Shown here piece after piece: positions 61,309 through 63,231 of a stretch of DNA of 64,000 bases. The stretch comes from Bacteroidota bacterium (GTDB lineage: Bacteria > Bacteroidota > Bacteroidia > Chitinophagales > JADIYW01). Location of the stretch: assembly GCA_028288625.1 (NCBI GenBank), contig JAQBNI010000152.1:1-64000 (forward strand). The letters are read 5' to 3'. A program made the position numbers and the translations under genes. Within the stretch, counting starts at the first letter, position 1; each line of letters begins with the position of its first letter. The notes below the pieces were generated by a model. It was not told the origin of the DNA, did no database searches, and worked only from the letters and a program-made list of their open reading frames with translations.

Positions 61309-61316
61309 TATATTTG
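61309..61316 (+). promoter_or_regulatory. -7 promoter element (TATATTTG) of the cys leader
   Basis: Exact TAnnTTTG match 5 nt before the leader-peptide ATG; no convincing -33 TTTG at 19-21 nt. Confidence 0.65.
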
Positions 61317-61321
61317 TACAA

Positions 61322-61381
61322 ATGAAATCACTACACATACTATTTGCAGCTTGTTGTTGCTGTTGCTTCACCCACCGGTGA
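61322..61381 (+). CDS. Cys-rich leader peptide MKSLHILFAACCCCCFTHR*
   Basis: Five consecutive Cys codons TGT TGT TGC TGT TGC (61352-61366); stop TGA (61379-61381) lies inside an attenuator arm. Confidence 0.85.
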   Translation: MKSLHILFAACCCCCFTHR

Positions 61382-61382
61382 G
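61367..61382 (+). promoter_or_regulatory. Attenuator pause/antiterminator hairpin segments 1 and 2
   Basis: TTCACC (61367-61372)-CACC-GGTGAG (61377-61382). Segment 2 is also complementary to CTCACC (61428-61433) in the terminator 5' arm. Confidence 0.75.
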
Positions 61383-61423
61383 CAAAGTATGTTATAAATA
61401 AGAAATAAAATTCATATCATACG

Positions 61424-61451
61424 AAGCCTCACCACAACTGGTGAGGTTTTT
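61424..61451 (+). terminator. Attenuator terminator upstream of cysM
   Basis: CCTCACCA-CAAC-TGGTGAGG perfect 8-bp stem (61427-61446) followed by TTTTT. Confidence 0.88.
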
Positions 61452-61470
61452 AATTGTTATAAATTGACTT

Positions 61471-62394
61471 ATGCAGGCAGCTATTATACATCCTCATCTT
61501 ATTGATAAGCTTCACCAGTTGGAGAAGTTCGTTGGTAATACGCCTTTATTTCCAATCACGGGATTGGGAACAAAGAAGAATGTGAAGATCTATGCGAAAC
61601 TGGAATGGCAGCAAATTTCTAATTCGGTAAAAGCACGCGCTGCTTATGCGATCATTAAGGATGCCGTATTAAAAAATGAGATCAATACAATCAAAGGATT
61701 GATCGATGCATCAAGCGGCAATACCGCTGTAGCGTATGCAACAATAGGAGCACATCTTGGTATTCCAATTAGTTTATGTGTACCTGAAAATGCATCATCG
61801 CAAAAAAAGAATGCACTGCAAGCCTTGGGGGCAAATATTATTTATACTTCTAAATTTGGTGGAACGGATGAAGCGCAGGTGAAGGCAAAAGAATTGAGCG
61901 TGGAGCATGCGTCAGAATATTTTTACGCAAATCAATATGCAAACGAAAATAACTGGAAAGCGCATTATAACGGAACTGCCATAGAAATATGGAACCAGAC
62001 AAAGGAAAAGATAACGCACTTCGTTGCAGGCTTGGGAACAACCGGAACATTTATTGGAACCAGCAGGAGATTGAAAGAATTAAACCGCGATATCATTACT
62101 ATTTCTTTACAACCCGATGCTGCAATGCACGGATTAGAAGGATGGAAGCATTTGGAAAGCGCTATTGTTCCCAAAATTTATGACGCCGGAATTGCGGATC
62201 ACAACCGTTTTATCGATACATATGAATCGTACGAAATGATGAAGAGCGCTGCAAAGTATGAAGGATTAATGCTGAGCCCGTCGTCTGCGGCAAATTTATT
62301 GGGAGCTGTACAATTAGCGGAGACATTGGAAGAAGGTGTGATCGTTACAACCTTCGCGGATCATGCCAGTAATTATCCTGATTTAAATATTTAG
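61471..62394 (+). CDS. cysM: PLP-dependent cysteine synthase (CysM-like)
   Basis: VGNTPLFPI, IDASSGNTAVAYA, GLGTTGTFIGTSRRLKE. Confidence 0.93.
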   Translation: MQAAIIHPHLIDKLHQLEKFVGNTPLFPITGLGTKKNVKIYAKLEWQQISNSVKARAAYAIIKDAVLKNEINTIKGLIDASSGNTAVAYATIGAHLGIPISLCVPENASSQKKNALQALGANIIYTSKFGGTDEAQVKAKELSVEHASEYFYANQYANENNWKAHYNGTAIEIWNQTKEKITHFVAGLGTTGTFIGTSRRLKELNRDIITISLQPDAAMHGLEGWKHLESAIVPKIYDAGIADHNRFIDTYESYEMMKSAAKYEGLMLSPSSAANLLGAVQLAETLEEGVIVTTFADHASNYPDLNI

Positions 62395-62455: not shown

Positions 62456-62878
62456 ATGAAATTAATCATACAACCATCTGCAGAAGAAACCATGAAGCAG
62501 CACGCCATAAAAGATTTTCCGGATGAATGCTGCGGTTTTTTATACGGGAAGGAAAGTGATGAAGCAAGAATAATAGAAACCGCAGTACCTGTAGAAAATA
62601 AAAAAGAAGGAGATAAGAAACGAAGATTTGAAATTTCAGGAATAGATTATATGAGAGCGGAACAACATGCATTAAAAAATAAAATTGATTTGCTGGGTGT
62701 TTATCATTCGCATCCCCAGCATCCGGCGATCGCTTCGGAACACGATCTGAAACAAGCGATGCCGTTTTTCTCATATGTAATTCTTTCCGTGATGGACAAA
62801 AAAATCGACGATATAAAAAGTTGGAAACTCAACGAAGAAAACACTGAGTTTATAGAAGAAACAATCATTTATCATTAA
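62456..62878 (+). CDS. JAMM/MPN+ metallopeptidase (Mec+-like)
   Basis: HSHPQHPAIASEHD matches HxHx7Sx2D exactly. Confidence 0.93.
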   Translation: MKLIIQPSAEETMKQHAIKDFPDECCGFLYGKESDEARIIETAVPVENKKEGDKKRRFEISGIDYMRAEQHALKNKIDLLGVYHSHPQHPAIASEHDLKQAMPFFSYVILSVMDKKIDDIKSWKLNEENTEFIEETIIYH

Positions 62879-62895
62879 TCATTCAACATTATACT

Positions 62896-63231
62896 ATGGC
62901 ACAATTGATCATCCCAACTCCGCTTAGAAAGTACAGTAATGAAGCGTCTACATTTAACACCGAAGCATTTACGATTGAACAGGCAATTGAAGAATTGATC
63001 ACGGAGTATCCGGATATCAAACCGCATTTAATGGATGCAAATGATAAGATCAGGGGATATATAAAAATTTTTGTAGGAGAAGATGATATCCGTGCGCTCG
63101 ATGGCGATCAGACAGAATTAAAAGCAGATTCTGTAGTAAGCATTGTCCCTGCAATTGCCGGGGGCTCCGTCTCGATTCCGACATGGATCGGAGAGAGATC
63201 CCGCTATATTTCAGTAGTAGCCAATAACTAG
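62896..63231 (+). CDS. MoaD/ThiS-like sulfur carrier protein (CysO-like) with a 21-residue extension after GG
   Basis: SVVSIVPAIAGG resembles CysO C-termini, followed by SVSIPTWIGERSRYISVVANN. Confidence 0.9.
   Translation: MAQLIIPTPLRKYSNEASTFNTEAFTIEQAIEELITEYPDIKPHLMDANDKIRGYIKIFVGEDDIRALDGDQTELKADSVVSIVPAIAGGSVSIPTWIGERSRYISVVANN

Follow-up and report, generated by a model that had tools for sequence, protein, structure and literature searches.

Poly-cysteine leader ORFs as candidate transcription attenuators of cysteine synthesis in Bacteroidota

Organization of the leader and the downstream operon

The window, i.e., the whole 64-kb stretch of DNA analysed, contains near its end a short cysteine-rich ORF followed by a terminator-like hairpin and four genes on the same strand. 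The upstream neighbour is pyrF, whose end lies approximately 42 nt before the -7 box of the leader. The features are as follows:

61309..61316, + strand: promoter -7 element TATATTTG, recognized from the sequence by the sigma-A consensus TAnnTTTG of Bacteroidota
61322..61381, + strand: leader ORF MKSLHILFAACCCCCFTHR with its stop codon; 19 codons, ATG at 61322, predicted transcription start site (TSS) at 61321
61352..61366, + strand: putative Cys sensor run TGT TGT TGC TGT TGC, five consecutive Cys codons read directly
61367..61372, + strand: segment 1 (TTCACC), predicted to form a pause hairpin with segment 2 in the ribosome-free fold
61377..61382, + strand: segment 2 (GGTGAG), overlapping the stop TGA (61379-61381) and beginning 10 nt past the last Cys codon
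61387..61422, + strand: spacer helix GTATG (61387-61391)/CATAC (61418-61422), predicted to close the antiterminator loop in the fold with ribosome-masked Cys codons
61426..61433, + strand: segment 3 GCCTCACC, with CTCACC at 61428-61433; terminator 5' arm and partner of segment 2 by the permutation test of 2:3
61440..61451, + strand: segment 4 (GGTGAGG) plus U5, predicted intrinsic terminator with a hairpin of -14.1 kcal/mol; GGTGAG at 61440-61445, T5 at 61447-61451
61471..62394, + strand: cysM-like PLP enzyme, the first putatively regulated gene; PF00291, best NCBIfam match TIGR01138 (cysM), under its cut-off
62456..62878, + strand: JAMM metalloprotease (Mec-like), PF14464
62896..63231, + strand: ThiS/MoaD-fold sulfur carrier (CysO-like), PF02597
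63275..64000, + strand: MoeB/MoeZ-like E1 with a rhodanese domain, extending beyond the window end to about 64411

The box, the ORF, segments 1-4 and the U5 tract had been listed in a preliminary description of this DNA, and all of these elements and their coordinates matched the sequence on re-reading. The description also assigned the genes to a CysM/CysO-type operon, with which the domain matches (cysM-JAMM-CysO-MoeZ) agree; judging from these domains, the cysteine synthesis encoded downstream is of the CysM/CysO/Mec type. The leader ORF was the sole ORF of its kind on either strand of the window in a scan for ORFs of at most 45 codons with ATG, GTG or TTG starts and a run of four or more Cys codons. 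An Rfam search of the leader returned no match above the gathering threshold, the best being Phe_leader with 20.5 bits against a threshold of 55.

Conservation of the poly-Cys leader upstream of cysM

Within the family, eight cysM orthologues were recovered, namely the window's own cysM and seven others with 63-79% protein identity, and upstream of each lies a poly-Cys ORF with 4-7 Cys and, behind it, a hairpin with a U tract. Close relatives retaining cysM without the Cys run and the terminator, a case that the preliminary description had set against its reading, were not seen among these eight loci. The same description proposed a scan across Bacteroidota, in which the poly-Cys ORF proved to be recurrent. 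At the order and class levels, ATG-initiated ORFs of at most 45 codons with four or more consecutive Cys were present within 1 kb upstream of cysM on the sense strand in 40 of 60 regions and on the antisense strand in none (0/60); among runs of four or more of other amino acids, Leu came next, with 9 of the 60 regions. A sample of named genomes, which shares part of its loci with the former, gave 44/79 and 0/79 for the sense and antisense strands, respectively. The codons of the Cys runs were mixed (TGT:TGC = 318:134), as would be expected from selection on codons and not from a DNA repeat. Outside the run, the leader peptide was not conserved, and its length ranged from roughly 15 to 45 aa.

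The leader was carried by Chitinophagales, Saprospiraceae, Flavobacteriales, Cytophagales/Flammeovirgaceae and a few Acidobacteriota (L222, L229, and L231). In two of the latter, affiliated with Pyrinomonadaceae (L222 and L229), a related poly-Cys leader with another terminator sequence precedes a cysM/CysO-type gene, which suggests transfer or a wider spread of the element. Among the carriers is a cultured strain, Pseudoflavitalea rhizosphaerae KACC 18655 (L193). Outside the family, no poly-Cys leader was present in the upstream DNA examined for many cysM orthologues (L059, L061, L062, L065, L067-L071, L105, L107, L112, L114, L115, L168, L173, L174, L198, L203, L212, and L213). Three genomes (G098, G113, and G118) hold a second cysM copy without the leader; the other copy has one in G098 and G113, and its upstream DNA is too short to judge in G118. 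Upstream of cysM in Balneolales and Ignavibacteria (L199, L241, and L225), poly-Cys ORFs were not followed by a convincing intrinsic terminator, possibly reflecting a different mechanism or chance.

A second target and tandem leaders

Genes of the nitrite/sulfite-reductase type were also preceded by poly-Cys ORFs, with four or more Cys in 15 and three or more in 19 of 27 loci, a set that includes one match (L157) probably due to chance; none was found on the antisense strand. In the present genome, MKSKFNRCNCCCVCPL with its stop codon and a terminator (GCCTGTCC...GACAGGC-T7) precede the gene of a NIR_SIR protein of 707 aa, downstream of which lie genes for siroheme synthesis. These leaders came to light on inspection of 20 matches from a family-wide scan for poly-TGY in general, in which simple repeats prevailed, and the list of regulon members in this genome, having been obtained by searches, may be incomplete. 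Both cysM and sulfite reductase lie on the route from sulfite to cysteine, which fits a cysteine signal. The genomic context points to sulfite, not nitrite, as the substrate of the siroheme enzyme. The poly-Cys ORFs in L103, L157 and L162 were discarded as probable chance occurrences because their hairpins were weak or far off.

At 23 of 100 loci, before cysM or sulfite reductase, two poly-Cys leader-terminator units stood in series; their sequences had diverged, and the spacing between them was usually 4-90 nt. Such tandem loci include L036, L040, L050, L060, L102, L104, L144 and L147, as well as L152, L153, L154, L166, L171, L189 and L194, among others. A pair in series would be expected to leak less and to respond more steeply.

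Covariation between the antiterminator and the terminator

The pairing of segments 2 and 3 was assessed across species as the best duplex between the stretch after the Cys run and the 5' arm of the terminator, comparing each leader's own arm with the arms of other species. For 77 leaders, the mean energies were -14.0 and -9.2 kcal/mol for own and swapped arms, respectively, and none of 20,000 permutations was as good. In a set of 95 leaders, comprising the de-duplicated leaders and the named genomes, the values were -13.7 and -9.3 kcal/mol (0/20,000 permutations; z = -18.4, a score that overstates independence even after de-duplication because the leaders share descent). Relatedness also improves the swapped pairs and in this respect works against the measured effect. 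The own segment 3 was better than the median swap in 93 of the 95 leaders, and in the sulfite-reductase subset alone the own pairing was better in 19/19 (z = -7.3), whereas the DNA upstream of the ATG, used as a control region in the same test, gave no effect (z = -0.8). Segment 2 itself varies among species, from GGTGAGG through GGAAAGG to GGTGGAG, keeping its pairing with the respective segment 3. The difference between own and swapped arms, together with the silent control region, indicates that segments 2 and 3 change together as the sequences diverge. A compensatory change proposed in L007 was contradicted by the sequence of that locus and was dropped.

The 2:3 antiterminator and 3:4 terminator postulated in the preliminary description, which had called for a covariation check, thereby gained strong cross-species support. 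Of the complete four-segment scheme, the 1:2 pause hairpin was present in the fold of the window, but its signal across species was weak (z = -3.9). A strong hairpin with a U tract followed nearly every Bacteroidota leader, and some poly-Cys ORFs had no intrinsic terminator.

Geometry and predicted folding states

The distance from the last Cys codon to the start of segment 2 has a median of 13 nt (at least 7 nt in 97% of leaders; 10 nt in the window), and approximately 80% of segment 2 falls within the assumed footprint of a ribosome at the stop codon. Segment 2 would therefore lie past the assumed footprint of a ribosome stalled in the Cys run, a geometry that fits a ribosome-operated switch. 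Folding of the window leader yielded hairpin 1:2 and the terminator when no ribosome was placed on it, and the terminator when the stop codon was masked. With the Cys run masked and segment 4 not yet made, the 2:3 antiterminator formed at -14.6 kcal/mol with the inner GTATG/CATAC helix. Once segment 4 was included, the terminator was the more stable fold even with a ribosome at the Cys run; hence, the switch must work kinetically, as in trp.

Promoter and near-leaderless start

In Flavobacterium psychrophilum, the sigma-A box with the consensus TAnnTTTG is positioned at -12 to -5 (PMC9723704), and applying this position to the window places the TSS at 61321, leaving a 5' UTR of 1 nt. The nearly leaderless start proposed in the preliminary description thus fits the window, and six of the eight family loci (L001, L003, and L005-L008) have a -7 box 4-7 nt ahead of an in-frame ATG, but it does not hold generally, as the box and the ATG are at most 10 nt apart in only 17 of the 77 leaders of the wider set. 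On these counts, near-leaderless initiation appears to be a local feature and not a defining one.

Proposed mechanism and alternative explanations

At the level of sequence, the comparisons demonstrate a poly-Cys ORF, a terminator and mutually exclusive 2:3 and 3:4 pairings, conserved before cysM and sulfite reductase. The element is very probably a trp-type, ribosome-mediated transcription attenuator that senses cysteine through Cys-tRNA. Transcription would start at about 61321, and the leader ORF would be translated from an almost 5'-terminal AUG. When Cys-tRNA is plentiful, a ribosome reaching the stop codon would cover segment 2, allowing 3:4 to form and transcription to terminate, so that the predicted response to plentiful cysteine is to switch the operon off. 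When Cys-tRNA is scarce, the ribosome would halt at the Cys codons; segment 2, which lies 10 nt further downstream, would then be available for pairing with segment 3, and with 2:3 formed, RNA polymerase would continue into cysM-mec-cysO-moeZ. In an untranslated leader, 1:2 would sequester segment 2 and termination would be the default.

A stalled ribosome might instead act on translation, by making the start codon of cysM more or less accessible or by permitting coupling, in the manner described for mycobacterial poly-Cys leaders that control downstream translation (PMC9031893, PMC13236596). We regard this as improbable, given the strong hairpin and U tract behind nearly every Bacteroidota leader and the covariation of segment 2 with the terminator arm. 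Even less credible is a functional Cys-rich peptide, binding metal or active in redox, that stands before cys genes by coincidence: the Cys run is conserved as such a peptide would need, but the remainder of the peptide is not and varies in length, the end of the ORF covaries with the terminator at the RNA level, and the tandem copies differ in sequence. A chance pairing of a random ORF with an ordinary pyrF terminator, suggested by the terminator's position 160 nt beyond the stop codon of pyrF, is refuted by the sense/antisense asymmetry, the 8/8 family loci, the permutation test and the recurrence of the element ahead of cysM genes with other neighbours and ahead of sulfite reductase.

In enteric bacteria, the work of the cysteine regulon is done by protein regulators. 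Beyond the attenuator at this locus, a Bacteroidota-wide cysteine regulon reaching a few Acidobacteriota can be envisaged, in which poly-Cys attenuators, single or in tandem for the same amino acid, control sulfite reduction and CysM/CysO synthesis in place of enteric-type protein regulators; we give this broader proposal roughly even weight.

Relation to known systems

The enterobacterial trp, his and leu attenuators combine a short ORF carrying codons of the regulating amino acid with 1:2/2:3/3:4 logic and an intrinsic terminator. The present element resembles them in all these respects and differs in its amino acid, Cys, its Bacteroidota promoter, its predicted nearly 5'-terminal start and its frequent doubling in series. 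To our knowledge, the two ORFs of Salmonella mgtCBR are not duplicate sensors of a single amino acid. The mgtCBR tandem attenuators carry two regulatory short ORFs serially in one leader (PMC3641672), an arrangement shared by the tandem poly-Cys leaders, in which, unlike mgtCBR, both ORFs are poly-Cys.

For cysteine, poly-Cys leaderless sORFs have been shown in mycobacteria (Canestrari 2020, as relayed in PMC9094748 and PMC9031893), and leaders with Cys codons but no conserved terminator hairpin have been predicted in Actinobacteria (PMC1262725). The Bacteroidota leaders share with the mycobacterial sORFs a Cys codon run in a short ORF before sulfur or cysteine genes, an ORF predicted in the window to be nearly leaderless; in contrast to the actinobacterial leaders, which are described as translational, they possess a terminator and a covarying antiterminator. 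In Rhodobacterales, uORFC-8-2 upstream of cysS is likewise a predicted ribosome-mediated Cys attenuator with a terminator stem (PMC8632094), but it has two conserved Cys codons, belongs to Alphaproteobacteria and precedes cysS, whereas the leaders studied here have runs of 3-10 Cys and precede cysM and sulfite reductase. Leader-type cis-regulation is known in Bacteroidota from F. psychrophilum, where such elements occur at amino-acid operons and 5' elements of pheA and hisG, but no Cys element, are named (PMC9723704), and from the Bacteroid-trp RNA (RF01692), which is listed among the cis-regulatory RNAs of Bacteroidetes (PMC2864571) and has no Cys link; the present leaders differ in their putative Cys signal.

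In the openly accessible main texts covered by our literature search, no Cys attenuator was described for Bacteroidota, in line with the preliminary description, whose author was aware of none; the survey of Lopatovskaya (2010) may hold a related prediction. The leaders represent a new family within an attenuator principle that is already known; most original are their doubled arrangement and the regulon of two operons. They offer a concrete candidate answer to how cysteine synthesis is controlled in many Bacteroidota and extend predicted Cys-specific attenuation past Actinobacteria and Rhodobacterales, here combined with an intrinsic terminator and an antiterminator that covaries with it. The single and double attenuators constitute a natural series for gain and leakiness, and many unannotated ORFs of 15-45 codons in these genomes gain an assignable function.

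Shine-Dalgarno sequences are little used in the phylum Bacteroidota, and the predicted near-leaderless start is relevant to the question of how leader peptides are translated under these circumstances.

The CysO-like carrier (62896-63231) has 21 residues beyond its IAGG motif and does not end in GG. Among relatives, the tail is short or the carrier continues directly, in one frame, into the MoeB-like E1 (L046, L214, L222, and L230). Because of this C-terminal extension, the JAMM protease may serve in maturation of the carrier as well as in the release of cysteine.
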